DNA of 64,000 nt from Sinomonas cyclohexanicum (GTDB lineage: Bacteria > Actinomycetota > Actinomycetes > Actinomycetales > Micrococcaceae). The DNA is taken from assembly GCF_020886775.1 (NCBI RefSeq), contig NZ_AP024525.1, forward strand, positions 744,001 to 808,000, in the 5' to 3' direction. The notes below the pieces were generated by a model. It was not told the origin of the DNA. It ran no database searches and was given only the letters and a program-made list of their open reading frames with translations. Below, in pieces: positions 57,138-62,234 of the stretch; within the stretch, counting starts at the first letter, position 1; every line of letters starts with the position of its first letter. A program made the translations under genes and the position numbers.

Positions 57138-57185
57138 CACGACGGCGGCCGCTCACCCCACGAGGGGTGAGCGGCCGCCGTCGTG
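57138..57185. terminator. Perfect 22-bp palindromic terminator between convergent gpmA and phoU
   Basis: Arm 57138-57159 is exactly complementary to 57164-57185 with loop ACGA. It is bounded by CACGACGGCGG and CCGCCGTCGTG, like the interrupted palindrome at 60082/61621. It lies 23 bp after gpmA and 17 bp after phoU, so it should act in both directions. No T tract. Confidence 0.85.
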
Positions 57186-58039: not shown

Positions 58040-59248
58040 GTGGATCCTCTCGTCGTCGGCATCGTGGCGGGCCTCATCGGCCTGTCGTTCGGCGCCTTCG
58101 GCGTGCTCGCCTTCCGTGCCAGCCAGCGCCAGCGGCGCCTGCTCGAAGGCCCGGTGGGCGAGCCGAGCCTGCCCGCCGGCGCCACGGACGTCCTGTCCGT
58201 GCTCGGCAAGGCATTCGTTGTGGTCGATGCGATCGACGGCGTGGTGCGCGCGAGCCCGGCCGCCTACGCCTATGGGCTCGTGCGGGGCCATACCGTGGTG
58301 CACACGGAGCTGCTGGCCATGACCGCGAAGGTGCGCGGCAACGGCGTCATCCTCGAGAAGCAGCTCGAGCTGCCCCGCGGACCGCTCGGGCAGGGGACCA
58401 TCATCGTCAACGTCCGGGCCGCCGTCCTCGGGGACGAGTACATCCTGCTCCTCGCCGACGACCGCACCGAGATCACCCGCACCGAGCGCATCCGCAACGA
58501 CTTCGTGGCGAACGTGTCCCACGAGCTCAAGACCCCGGTCGGGGCCATCTCGCTCCTCGCGGAGGCCCTTGAGGCGAGCCCTGAGGACGAGGCGGCCGTG
58601 CGGCGCTTCGCCGCGCGCATGCGCAAGGAGGCGAGCCGTCTGGCGGCCCTCGTCCAGGACATCATCGAACTCTCCCGCCTCCAGGGGGCGGACATCGTGC
58701 ACATGGGCAGGGCCGTGGACCTCAACGAGGTGGTGGCCGACGCCGTCGACCGCTCCCGCCTTGCGGCCGAGGCGAAGTCCATCGAGGTGCGCGTGGGCGG
58801 GCACGTGGAGGTGCCCGTGTTCGGCGACGCCGACCTGCTGACCAACGCGCTGCGCAACCTCATCGACAACGCCATCCGCTACTCGCCCGCGCACACGAAG
58901 GTGGGGATCGGACTCAAGCACAAGGACGGCCTCGTCTCCGTGTCCGTCACCGATCAGGGCGAGGGCATGACGCCCGAGGACCAAGGGCGTGTGTTCGAGC
59001 GGTTCTACCGCGTGGATGCGGCCCGCTCGCGCCGGACCGGCGGGACGGGCCTGGGGCTCAGCATCGTCAAGCACGTCGTCGAGAACCACGGCGGAGAGGT
59101 GACGCTGTGGTCGCAGCCAGGCAAGGGCTCCACCTTCACGGTGCGGCTGCCCGAGATGGAAGAGGACCCCGAAGGCAACGGGCCTGACGGGCAGAACCAG
59201 CATGACCGGACGGCCGGGCGGCCGCCGGAGCAAGGAGCGTTTCCGTGA
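58040..59248 (+). CDS. senX3: SenX3-type sensor histidine kinase
   Basis: 402 residues from a GTG at 58040. One N-terminal membrane helix (about 5-25), a PAS-like region (about 45-140), the phosphorylated His161 in NVSHELKTP, and the ATPase motifs DNAIRYSP, DQGEGMTPED, GTGLGLSIVKHVV. Senses phosphate status with PhoU/Pst. Mycobacterial SenX3 has two helices; here only one is clear. Its stop overlaps the regX3 start (GTGA). Confidence 0.94.
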   Translation: MDPLVVGIVAGLIGLSFGAFGVLAFRASQRQRRLLEGPVGEPSLPAGATDVLSVLGKAFVVVDAIDGVVRASPAAYAYGLVRGHTVVHTELLAMTAKVRGNGVILEKQLELPRGPLGQGTIIVNVRAAVLGDEYILLLADDRTEITRTERIRNDFVANVSHELKTPVGAISLLAEALEASPEDEAAVRRFAARMRKEASRLAALVQDIIELSRLQGADIVHMGRAVDLNEVVADAVDRSRLAAEAKSIEVRVGGHVEVPVFGDADLLTNALRNLIDNAIRYSPAHTKVGIGLKHKDGLVSVSVTDQGEGMTPEDQGRVFERFYRVDAARSRRTGGTGLGLSIVKHVVENHGGEVTLWSQPGKGSTFTVRLPEMEEDPEGNGPDGQNQHDRTAGRPPEQGAFP

Positions 59249-59925
59249 GCAGGATCCTGATCGTCGAGGACGAGGAGTCGTTCAGCGACCCCCTCTCGTT
59301 CCTTCTGGCGAAGGAGGGCTACGAAGTCGAGGTCGTGGACAACGGAAGTGACGCGCTCGTCGAGTTCGACCGCAACGGCGCCGACCTCGTGCTCCTGGAC
59401 CTGCAGCTCCCCGGGACCCCGGGAACCGAGGTGTGCCGGCAGCTGCGGGCGCGCTCGAGCGTGCCCGTGATCATGCTGACCGCGAAGGACTCGGAGATCG
59501 ACAAGGTGGTGGGCCTCGAGCTCGGCGCCGACGACTACGTCACCAAGCCGTACTCCTCGCGTGAGCTCGTGGCGCGCGTGCGGGCCGTGCTGCGCAGGCA
59601 CGGCGAGCCGGAGGAGCTCATCTCCTCGACGGTCCACGCGGGCCCGGTGCGCATGGACGTGGAGCGGCACGTGGTGAGCGTGGACGGCGAGCAGGTCTCG
59701 CTGCCGCTGAAGGAGTTCGAGCTGCTCGAGATGCTCCTGCGCAACTCCGGGCGCGTCCTCACGCGCGGCCAGCTGATCGACCGTGTGTGGGGCTCCGACT
59801 ACGTGGGGGACACCAAGACCCTCGACGTGCACGTCAAGCGGCTCCGCAGCAAGATCGAGCCGGACCCGTCGAGCCCGCGCTACCTCGTCACTGTGCGCGG
59901 CCTGGGCTACAAGTTCGAGCCCTGA
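59245..59925 (+). CDS. regX3: RegX3-type response regulator
   Basis: 226 residues from a GTG at 59245. Receiver with phospho-acceptor Asp52 in LVLLDLQLPG, Thr/Lys in MLTAKDSEID, then an OmpR-type winged helix (about 130-225) ending GLGYKFEP. Activates phosphate-starvation genes by binding PHO boxes. Coupled to senX3. After the stop comes a stretch of degenerate 12-16-bp repeats and then the IS-split palindrome. Confidence 0.95.
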   Translation: MSRILIVEDEESFSDPLSFLLAKEGYEVEVVDNGSDALVEFDRNGADLVLLDLQLPGTPGTEVCRQLRARSSVPVIMLTAKDSEIDKVVGLELGADDYVTKPYSSRELVARVRAVLRRHGEPEELISSTVHAGPVRMDVERHVVSVDGEQVSLPLKEFELLEMLLRNSGRVLTRGQLIDRVWGSDYVGDTKTLDVHVKRLRSKIEPDPSSPRYLVTVRGLGYKFEP

Positions 59926-60081: not shown

Positions 60082-60103
60082 GCACGACGGCGGCCGGTCA
60101 CCT
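60082..60103. repeat. Left arm of the palindromic hairpin split by the IS30 element
   Basis: GCACGACGGCGG with ten further bases, exactly complementary to 61600-61621. Joined to the right flank after removal of 60104-61589 it forms a 25-bp stem with a 4-nt loop. Before the insertion it will have been the terminator between regX3 and the lipoprotein gene. Confidence 0.85.
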
Positions 60104-61586
60104 GGCGGTTTCTAGTGGTCGTTGCAACACCGCTGGTTGATCAGGTGGAGGTTAGCAGGTCGCGCAGGCGCTCGGCTGGGGTCTTCCAGCCGAGCGTCTT
60201 GCGTGGTCGGGCGTTGAGTTCCTGGGCGACGTGCTCGAGGTCCTCGGGGCCGTAGACCGACAGGTCGGTGCCCTTGGGGAAGTACTGGCGCAGCAGGCCG
60301 TTGGTGTTCTCGTTGGTCCCGCGCTGCCAGGGGCTGGCCGGGTCGCAGAAGTACACGTCCATGCCGGTGGCGAGCGTGAACGTGCGGTGGCGGGCCATCT
60401 CGGAGCCCTGGTCCCAGGTCAGGGACCCGCGCAGGTGCTCCGGGAGGGTCTGCACGGTCTCGATGAGGGCGTCGCGGACGCTGGCCGCGTCGTGCCCGTG
60501 GGGCAGGTGCAGGAGCATCACGTAGCGGGTGGTGCGCTCGACCAGGGTCCCGATCGCGGACCGGTTGGAGGCGCCGGTGATCAGGTCCCCTTCCCAGTGC
60601 CCGGGCACGGCGCGGTCCTGGACCTCGGCGGGCCGGTCGGAGATCATGACCATGCCCTCGAACCGCGGGATCCGTTCGGTCCCGTCGCGGTGCGGGCGGC
60701 GGACGGCCCGGCCGGTGCGCAGGGACGCGGCGACCTCGCGTTTGAGGCCTCCGCGTCCTTGGACGTAGATGGCCTGGTAGACGGTCTCGTGGCACACGCG
60801 CATCTCCGCATCGTGGGGATAGTCCTGCACCAGAGCATGGCAGATCTGCTCCGGGGACCACCGCGTGGCCAGCTTCCCCGCGACGTAGTCCCGCAGCGGG
60901 CCCGGCCGGGCGAGCTTGGCCTGCCTGGGCCGGGGACGGCGCACGGCGGCCGCCCGCTGGGCGGCATAGGGGAAGTACCGCCCGTCGGTGCTGTTGCGGG
61001 CGATCTCCCGGGAGACGGTGGAGGCGGACCGGCCCAGCTGCCGGCCGATCTCCCGCAGTGTGGCCCCGGCGGCGAGCAGGTCCCCGATCCGTTCCCGCTC
61101 GGGCAGGGACAGGTAGCGCGGATCAAGGGGCTTCTCCACTCCGGCCAGCGGCACCGCTGCGCTGACGGAGGGGGCGCGGGCTTCCATGGGAATGTTGTAG
61201 TCCACCACGCGCCCGTCCCGGTACCGGCGCCCGTTGCCCAGCTTGTGGACCCCGTTGTCCCATTCCTGAGCGGTCGTGCGGTGGATCCCGAGCCGCTCGG
61301 CGGCCTCAGTCCGGCTGAGGCCCTCGCGCCGGAGCCGGTGGAAGTCCCCCCGCGCAGGCCTGTCCGAGCGCTTCCGCGCCAGCCCGGCCTTCCGCACCCA
61401 CCCATACCCCGTGTTCCGGTTCACGCCCAGCTCCGCCGAAACAGCCGTCACCGACTCCCCGGCACGCACACGCTCCACGAACCCCTCACGGAACCGGGCC
61501 CTCCCAGCATCTCCATCCCCATAACGCGGCACGGTCGTTGCAACTCCTCAAAGTCCGAGGTGTTGCAACGACCGTTAGAACCCAAG
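60104..61586 (-). mobile_element. IS30-family insertion sequence
   Basis: 1483 bp with one intact transposase gene. Imperfect 25-bp terminal inverted repeats lie at 60107-60131 and 61559-61583 (22 of 25 bases match, inner 15 perfect: GGTCGTTGCAACACC). CCT occurs directly outside both ends (60101-60103 and 61587-61589) and is the likely 3-bp target duplication, which fits the 2-3 bp known for IS30 elements. Excising the element with one CCT restores a perfect palindrome. This supports these ends over the alternative pair at 60117/61573 flanked by GT. Confidence 0.9.
60141..61532 (-). CDS. IS30-family transposase
   Basis: 463 residues, intact. Two N-terminal helix-turn-helix regions (about 20-47 and 70-95), then the HTH_38-type domain (about 141-180: REIGRQLGRSASTVSREI) that contacts the inverted repeats, and the catalytic core with Asp316 (GHWEGDLI), Asp374 (TWDQGSEM) and Glu408 (GTNENTNG). 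The last two are 33 residues apart, as in the DD(33)E of IS30. It cuts and joins the element, with known preference for palindromic targets. No frameshift or stop, so the element is potentially active. Confidence 0.95.
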   Translation of the reverse strand: MPRYGDGDAGRARFREGFVERVRAGESVTAVSAELGVNRNTGYGWVRKAGLARKRSDRPARGDFHRLRREGLSRTEAAERLGIHRTTAQEWDNGVHKLGNGRRYRDGRVVDYNIPMEARAPSVSAAVPLAGVEKPLDPRYLSLPERERIGDLLAAGATLREIGRQLGRSASTVSREIARNSTDGRYFPYAAQRAAAVRRPRPRQAKLARPGPLRDYVAGKLATRWSPEQICHALVQDYPHDAEMRVCHETVYQAIYVQGRGGLKREVAASLRTGRAVRRPHRDGTERIPRFEGMVMISDRPAEVQDRAVPGHWEGDLITGASNRSAIGTLVERTTRYVMLLHLPHGHDAASVRDALIETVQTLPEHLRGSLTWDQGSEMARHRTFTLATGMDVYFCDPASPWQRGTNENTNGLLRQYFPKGTDLSVYGPEDLEHVAQELNARPRKTLGWKTPAERLRDLLTST

Positions 61587-61599
61587 CCTTTCGCTGGAA

Positions 61600-61621
61600 A
61601 GGTGACCGGCCGCCGTCGTGC
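61600..61621. repeat. Right arm of the palindromic hairpin split by the IS30 element
   Basis: Exact complement of 60082-60103. It ends 7 bp before the stop of the minus-strand lipoprotein gene. Together with CCTTTC-GCTG-GAAAGG (61587-61602) it shows the original stem tip. Confidence 0.85.
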
Positions 61622-61628
61622 TTGTGTA

Positions 61629-62234
61629 CTAGCGGCTCTGCGTCGCGGAGGCGGAGGCGGAGGCCGATCCCGATGCCGAGCCGGACGCCGATCCCGATGC
61701 CGAGCCGGACGGGGTGGCCGAGGAGGTTGCCGACGGGGTCGGGATGTACTGGCGGTACTCGGCGAGCGTGCCGTCGAGCACCGGGACCTCGACGTCCTGG
61801 CTCGTGCCGTCCGCCGTGAAGGAGACCTTGGCGAGGGCGCCGGGCACAGCGCCCGCCTTAGACAGGGTGACGTTCGTGCCGGGCTTGGACAGCTCGACCT
61901 CGCCCTTCTTCGGCACGTCGATGCGGATCGTGTTCGCGTCATCCTTGACGGTGAGGGTCACGTCCTTGTCCGACGTGTTGAAGACCGTGCCGAGCAGTCG
62001 GCCCTGGCTGCCGGCCGAGGCGCTGCTCGAGGACGTCGGCTGGTCCGCCGAGACGATCAGCATGTTGCGCAGCTGGAGCACGCCGATGTCGGTGCGGACG
62101 CCGTCAGACGCCGAGTACGTGTGGGTGGTCTGCTGGGCGTTGATGTAGCCGCAGCCCGTGGCGGTCAGCATGCCGACGCCCAGCGCGGCGACGAGGGCGA
62201 CGCGCTTGGCCGGCTTCGTTGCAGAGAAACGCAC
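61629..62234 (-). CDS. Putative lipoprotein with C-terminal Ser-Ala-Gly repeats
   Basis: 201 residues. Signal peptide with lipobox TATGC (Cys near 28), then a soluble beta-rich domain (about 35-165: LQLRNMLIVSAD, LGTVFNTSDKDVTLTVKDD) and a low-complexity tail GSASGSASGSASGS made of 12-bp DNA repeats. Such lipoproteins sit next to carD in Arthrobacter relatives; function unknown. Divergent from carD. Its terminator is the palindrome broken by the IS. Confidence 0.85.
   Translation of the reverse strand: MRFSATKPAKRVALVAALGVGMLTATGCGYINAQQTTHTYSASDGVRTDIGVLQLRNMLIVSADQPTSSSSASAGSQGRLLGTVFNTSDKDVTLTVKDDANTIRIDVPKKGEVELSKPGTNVTLSKAGAVPGALAKVSFTADGTSQDVEVPVLDGTLAEYRQYIPTPSATSSATPSGSASGSASGSASGSASASASATQSR

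Follow-up and report, generated by a model that had tools for sequence, protein, structure and literature searches.

The insertion sequence considered here lies in the window, the whole 64,000-nucleotide stretch of the Sinomonas cyclohexanicum genome that was analyzed, and appears to be an intact IS30-family element that inserted a copy of itself into a GC-rich hairpin between two convergent genes, in the part of the stem next to the loop. Its transposase would pick targets by their two-fold symmetry: long hairpins would be favored at their dyad, more so when one arm holds a C-run and the other a G-run, and 3 bp would be duplicated at that place. A symmetric transposase assembly may read either the dyad in the DNA or an extruded cruciform. 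Because such hairpins lie mostly past the ends of genes, the element would land where insertion costs little. This explanation, including the C/G-run preference, the 3-bp duplication and gene-end hairpins as targets, is very probably correct. The evidence is drawn from sequence and consists of the ends of the element, its 3-bp duplication, the hairpin at the empty site of congeners, the dyad targeting of relatives and the gene context. A dyad preference across many genera would account both for the landing sites of these actinobacterial elements and for their being tolerated there, and with it the choice of target can be tested as a matter of dyad, sequence or transcription state.

The element and its parts in the window are the following:

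60104 to 61586, minus strand: IS30-family element of 1,483 bp, delimited by terminal repeats, target duplication, profile match and the ends of relatives
60104 to 60131, minus strand: terminal repeat at the right end (3' side of the transposase), an inverted repeat
61559 to 61586, minus strand: terminal repeat at the left end (5' side of the transposase), an inverted repeat
60141 to 61532, minus strand: transposase of 463 amino acids, an intact reading frame with a GTG start and D316, D374 and E408
60101 to 60103, no strand: left copy of the target duplication CCT, read directly
61587 to 61589, no strand: right copy of the target duplication CCT, read directly

Judged by each family feature open to testing, the element is an ordinary member of the IS30 family. 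Target duplications in this family are short, 2 to 3 bp, and the CCT on either side of the element is of this kind, confirming the 3-bp duplication proposed in the first-pass annotation of the window. The terminal inverted repeats are imperfect (25 nt at 88%) and of about the length of 26 bp that characterizes the family. The transposase matches the IS30 transposase profile NF033563 at 301 bits (cut-off 80) and has 33 residues between D374 and E408, the number separating the second D from E in the IS30 rule quoted in the available text of PMC2516522. This profile score, the DDE triad and the uninterrupted reading frame agree with the earlier description of an intact IS30-type element lodged between the arms.

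The genome of the window contains a single copy of the element, and relatives were therefore used to analyze targets. In relatives with multiple copies (Nocardiopsis metallicus, 1475 bp; Streptomyces Z26, 1482 bp; SCUT-3, 1482 bp), the sequence common to the copies stops at the base equivalent to the end of the element. Taken together with the published ends of ISLxc3 (CTT.../...GCC), this shared boundary supports the element ends on grounds other than the hairpin, at the positions that the first-pass annotation had derived from the hairpin itself. ISLxc3 (and ISLxx5), an IS30-family element of Leifsonia xyli, has the ends CTTGGGTTCTAACGGTCGTTGCAACA and GGCGGATTCTAGTGGTCGTTGCAACA, which differ from those of the window element at one base in 52, and shares its non-complementary CTT/GCC tips; two copies carry 3-bp NTG repeats, and the repeat of the window element is also 3 bp (PMC2516522, available text). 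ISLxc3 is 1,511 bp long as against 1,483 bp, and the likeness is one of terminal sequences.

The surroundings of the element include the split hairpin and the two genes that converge on it:

59245 to 59925, plus strand: response regulator, regX3-like, with its 3' end towards the hairpin (open reading frame, profile searches)
60082 to 60103, no strand: first 22 nt of the 25-nt arm of the split hairpin, an exact inverted repeat with 61600 to 61621
61590 to 61621, no strand: remainder of the split hairpin, comprising TTC, the loop GCTG and the 25-nt arm GAAAGG...GTGC (read directly, fold)
61629 to 62234, minus strand: lipoprotein-like gene with its stop 8 nt from the hairpin (open reading frame)

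The arms at 60082-60103 and 61600-61621 are separated by 1496 nt and are complementary at 22 of 22 positions, exactly as first noted. Fusing position 60103 to 61590, which amounts to the deletion of 60104-61589, yields on folding the perfect 25-bp stem and 4-nt loop (GCTG) that had been predicted. This hairpin scores 25, whereas mispaired flanks (1320) and random positions (1522) each have a 99th percentile of 10, and it lies between the 3' ends of regX3 and the lipoprotein-like gene, the latter having no match in Pfam or NCBIfam. The suggestion that insertion occurred at the tip of the stem holds in so far as the site is near the loop, but not for the exact tip, since the stem is cut 3 bp short of the loop and the middle of the duplication stands 6.5 nt away from the dyad.

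Comparison with congeners reveals the target as it was before insertion. More specifically, an uninterrupted hairpin is found 3' of regX3 in 13 of 14 congeners, so that relatives free of the insertion sequence retain the palindrome, as the first-pass annotation had anticipated. The exception is L113, in which G- and C-runs stand where the hairpin is expected. An alternative explanation of the perfect arms in the window is that the flanking complementarity belongs to extended ends of the element rather than to the target; however, the hairpin occurs empty at the same place in the 13 congeners, and copies of one element have differing flanks that begin at the same base, leaving this alternative vanishingly improbable.

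The congener alignment shows the hairpin after regX3 to be kept as a structure. In 12 distinct congener rows (L113 was left out because the stretch looks misassembled, and in L115, where the automatic scan chose another hairpin, the correct core was placed by hand), 96.9% of cells are paired and 11 cells are changed on both sides, where shuffles give 3.5. At one pair, A-U, U-A, C-G, G-C and G-U are all seen. Counting against structural covariation, 15 of 20 pairs are invariant, and the 8 further pair types in the congener hairpin are not above shuffles, 101 of 500 of which reach 8. In L113 (2225-2364; congener G014) the long G- and C-runs that replace the hairpin are probably a misassembly caused by the hairpin; congener G002 (L114), which is near-identical to L113 around the site, has a clean hairpin.

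In the window neither strand has a U-tract next to the stem, nor does the regX3 strand of the congeners, and the hairpin is for this reason not classed as a canonical intrinsic terminator. Many actinobacterial terminators lack a U-tract, and the split hairpins may well be bidirectional terminators of this type. A terminator-like match at the junction (60093-60106) is within chance, with 1 found and 0.5 expected. The CGACGNCGGCCGNNCACC stem represents a repeated class in Sinomonas, with 18 matches in the genome of the window and 0 for the reversed pattern in the same genome. A second perfect hairpin, of the CGACGGCGGCCGCTCACC type, lies within the window at 57138-57185, and in several congeners such hairpins are found about 2.8 kb apart, flanking the sensor kinase/regX3 pair.

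Relatives of the element were obtained from one scan of genome contigs, from which the best 80 of 584 confirmed loci were fetched, 50 of the 80 being Streptomyces or Nocardiopsis. Both ends and enough flank were present at 65 of these loci, and addition of the window gave 66 sites; the other 15 (L035, L036, L048, L063, L075, L076, L082, L084, L088, L089, L092, L097, L100, L101 and L109) were dropped because the end motif score was too low or the contig too short. A strong hairpin was defined as one with an ungapped score of at least 12 and its dyad within 12 nt. A statistic based on global folding was abandoned because GC-rich mispaired flanks fold too: at least 10 spanning pairs were found in 667 of 792 mispaired controls and in 62 of 66 observed sites.

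The preference for palindromes that was initially attributed to the element is clearly evident among these relatives. Strong hairpins occur at 42 of the 66 sites from the best 80 of 584 loci, as compared with 7 of 1320 mispaired flanks and 12 of 1522 random positions; with a gapped score, the counts are 43 of 66 sites (again best 80 of 584) and 7 of 396 mispaired flanks. Within the same best 80 of 584, an exact 3-bp duplication is present at 48 of 66 sites (94 of 4290 mispaired flanks), while the 18 sites without a 3-bp repeat count against the model. Also counting against it are 14 of the 66 sites, for example L034 and L037, which have no ungapped hairpin of score at least 8 within 12 nt; a few of the 14 hold gapped hairpins (L072, L067). 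Thus, the expectation that other copies would also sit in hairpins is borne out at the sites with strong hairpins, but not at these 14.

The position of insertion within the hairpins is also precise. In 33 of the 43 hairpin sites by gapped score (best 80 of 584), no more than 2.5 nt separate the dyad from the middle of the duplication. Arm complementarity at half-distances 3-17 in these 43 sites is 0.84-0.98, a value that is partly built in as the sites were chosen for pairing; when arms are swapped among the sites it falls to 0.29-0.54, and this low pairing indicates that the targets are not one shared sequence. A hold-out set, drawn from other searches, comprised 13 copies that were not among the first 80, had both ends identified and fell on the window's side of the tree, counted per locus (L156, L184-L186, L158, L187, L163, L168, L188, L192, L159, L157 and L005). 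The hold-out table lists most loci twice, once per strand, owing to the near-symmetric ends, and its other rows are other clades or L031. Scores of at least 12 were found in 6 of the 13 copies and of at least 8 in 9 of 13, with all four hold-out copies of genome G247 scoring at least 12. The Sinomonas albida copy (L031) lies within a GACGACGGCGG-type hairpin. For a related copy in congener G012 just one flank is available, because the contig ends, and the arm in it begins GCACGACGGCG.

Structure alone is not the code, since the targets show a real preference for C-runs and G-runs. The motif CCCC..GGGG is found in 30 of 42 hit hairpins but in only 9 of 53 background hairpins from the same loci (Fisher p 9e-8), and dyad-aligned targets carry up to 0.88 bits per position near +-9. 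A reading in which the transposase recognizes a short C-run/G-run palindrome by sequence, with hairpins hit merely as its carriers, would draw on these same two observations and on the 53-fold enrichment of sites with the C/G motif and no dyad (5 sites; best 80 of 584). However, centred dyads that lack the motif keep a 100-fold enrichment (5 sites; best 80 of 584), and the motif is absent from 12 of 42 hit hairpins, that of the window among them. Recognition of sequence alone is accordingly regarded as unlikely. Dyad and motif together are enriched 4171-fold (26 sites), which is near the product of the single enrichments, and the simplest reading would be a symmetric transposase assembly that prefers a dyad plus a C/G-rich half-site. 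In IS30 itself, an N-terminal helix-turn-helix is required for specific target binding (Nagy 2004, as cited in the available text of PMC1525189). Against the model, 21 of 66 sites have neither a dyad (score at least 8, within 2.5 nt) nor the C/G motif; the window falls into this class through its 6.5-nt offset, as do off-centre hairpins.

Gene context, assigned with a crude ORF caller based on GC position, is equally distinctive. Among the 66 sites from the best 80 of 584 loci, 32 lie between convergent genes and 8 inside a predicted ORF, the corresponding counts for random positions being 21 and 1029 of 1240. The 32 convergent sites are what would be expected if insertion were near-random and selection kept the copies that fell into harmless convergent gaps. 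Yet in the convergent gaps of these loci only 35 of 4765 positions have such a dyad no more than 2.5 nt away, as compared with 31 of 66 observed sites with a centred dyad in all contexts (best 80 of 584), and insertion tolerance therefore does not explain the precision. A sister clade, moreover, inserts at a quite different fixed site, and survivorship of this kind is very improbable as the explanation.

The sister clade is 52-64% identical over the catalytic part and forms a separate branch of the tree. Ends were found in 21 of its 25 loci examined, and in 17 of the 21 (15 distinct sites) the cut follows the beginning of the His codon in an H-S/T-D motif by exactly 21 nt (L175, L026, L179, L011, L013, L182, L204, L012, L208, L024, L202, L205, L206, L207 and L209). 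The target encodes HSDRG or HSDAG in 13 of the 17, and these sites may be the catalytic motifs of other transposase genes, such that the sister clade would be aiming at rivals. A further IS30 element, from genome G037 and 43% identical, was judged by eye to occupy the dyad of a repeat, CGCTGTATTAA..TTAATACAGCG, that is dispersed in the genome; this holds for about 8 of 10 copies examined (L014, L025 and L212-L219). Target choice thus varies widely within one family.

A preference of IS30 for palindromes is already known, and target specificity has reportedly been studied for IS30 (Olasz 1998) and IS1655 (Kiss 2007). What is described here is a preference for the dyads of unrelated gene-end hairpins in many genera; a literature search, in which subscription journals were mostly outside coverage, found no report of an IS30 lineage with such targets. 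Mobile DNA that uses terminator hairpins as targets is known from group IIC introns, the mobility of which is RNA-based and unrelated to IS30. IS30 of E. coli, a family-mate that forms circular intermediates with joined ends, likewise has nearly palindromic hot spots and inserts at the central 2 bp of one of them, but differs in its 2-bp target distance and in that its two preferred targets are hot-spot sequences and its own ends; the word terminator is absent from this account (PMC9333248, available text). ISPsy8 likewise duplicates 3 bp, at the axis of symmetry of a predicted extragenic hairpin; it belongs, however, to the IS3 family, and its target is one conserved REP sequence rather than unrelated hairpins (PMC1525189, available text). 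ISPpu9 also resides in extragenic palindromes and has a transposase mRNA leader that buries the ribosome-binding site, whereas it is an IS110-family element with another type of transposase, no clear terminal inverted repeats and two small RNAs (PMC8450116, available text). The authors who described ISLxc3 aligned 20 bases from each side and, in the available text of PMC2516522, detected no conserved target site. This is the outcome expected of a structure-led target, because a hairpin peculiar to each copy is invisible in a multiple alignment.

The element itself carries a hairpin near each end:

61531 to 61575, minus strand: leader hairpin over a Shine-Dalgarno-like GAGGAG, extending up to the GTG start (fold, covariation in 30 elements)
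60166 to 60199, no strand: hairpin within the LGW..TPAE codons at the 3' coding end of the transposase, which can be read from either strand (inverted repeat, silent-codon constraint)

The leader hairpin lies 11 nt inside the left end, folds at -33 kcal/mol (z -6.7) and comprises 14 plus about 5 bp. Across the 30 long elements compared, 97.8% of its cells are paired, and 9 pairs and 54 cells are changed on both sides as compared with 5.5 and 16.5 when shuffled (0 of 500). It is confined to the long subgroup, where it scores at least 12 in 25 of 33 elements and at least 10 in 31 of 33; none of 15 elements of the short subgroup reaches 12, yet these target hairpins too.

The hairpin of the 3' coding end, about 60-95 nt inside the right end, is marked by its silent sites. 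P457 is encoded by CCA in 48 of 48 distinct transposases and P448 in 46 of 48, as compared with 32 of 523 codons for other conserved prolines, and L452 is CTC in 46 of 48, CTG being the more frequent codon (residues numbered by the open frame, 5 above the ORF). The residues encoded in the loop are variable, as judged from motif hits collected with a regular expression, a few of which are unrelated frames. The ungapped score of the stem is at least 12 in 35 of 48 elements, long and short relatives together, and at least 9, a cut-off picked afterwards, in 45 of 48; it is below 9 in 6 of 6 elements of the clades with other targets.

With the leader hairpin facing transcripts from the lipoprotein side and the 3' hairpin facing those from the regX3 side, both may act as terminators that replace the split one. 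On the sense strand, translating ribosomes would mask the 3' hairpin, and on the antisense strand nothing would. Because the element carries hairpins near both ends, the earlier proposal that regX3 and the lipoprotein-like gene have lost their shared terminator is not supported as it was put, and the read-through expected from such a loss is a prediction. That the element's own hairpins substitute for the broken one, each flanking gene encountering one shortly beyond it, and that impinging transcripts cannot translate the transposase, is a genuine possibility that nevertheless falls short of being probable. Consistent with it are the covariation of the leader hairpin, the retention of the 3' hairpin by silent sites and the weakness of the 3' stem in clades with other targets. 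On the other hand, the 5' arm of the leader hairpin is the terminal repeat, such that its covariation could also come from a second site at which the transposase binds DNA; a subterminal protein site is similarly conceivable for the 3' palindrome; the short subgroup targets hairpins without a strong leader hairpin; and there are no U-tracts.

A broader reading, advanced tentatively and rather doubtful as a whole, is that of an actinobacterial IS30 lineage specialized on gene-end hairpins. Such a lineage would target the dyad of a bidirectional terminator and replace the hairpin that it splits with one of its own at each end, of which one is written in silent codons of the transposase gene and masked by sense translation. 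Both neighboring genes would then still terminate, and the element would be shielded from outside transcription. The silent-codon hairpin is a separate and sharp prediction on how broken transcription units are handled.

Two further observations concern individual copies. At L037, in Nocardiopsis metallicus, the copy lies inside a CRISPR-like array with CCGCGTGCGCGGGGAGCAG on both sides, around 2923 and 4397. At L036 and L092, which are from different genera, the first bases of the left element end are replaced by the same AAAGATCAGTAG junction, perhaps the mark of another mobile element that targets this end.
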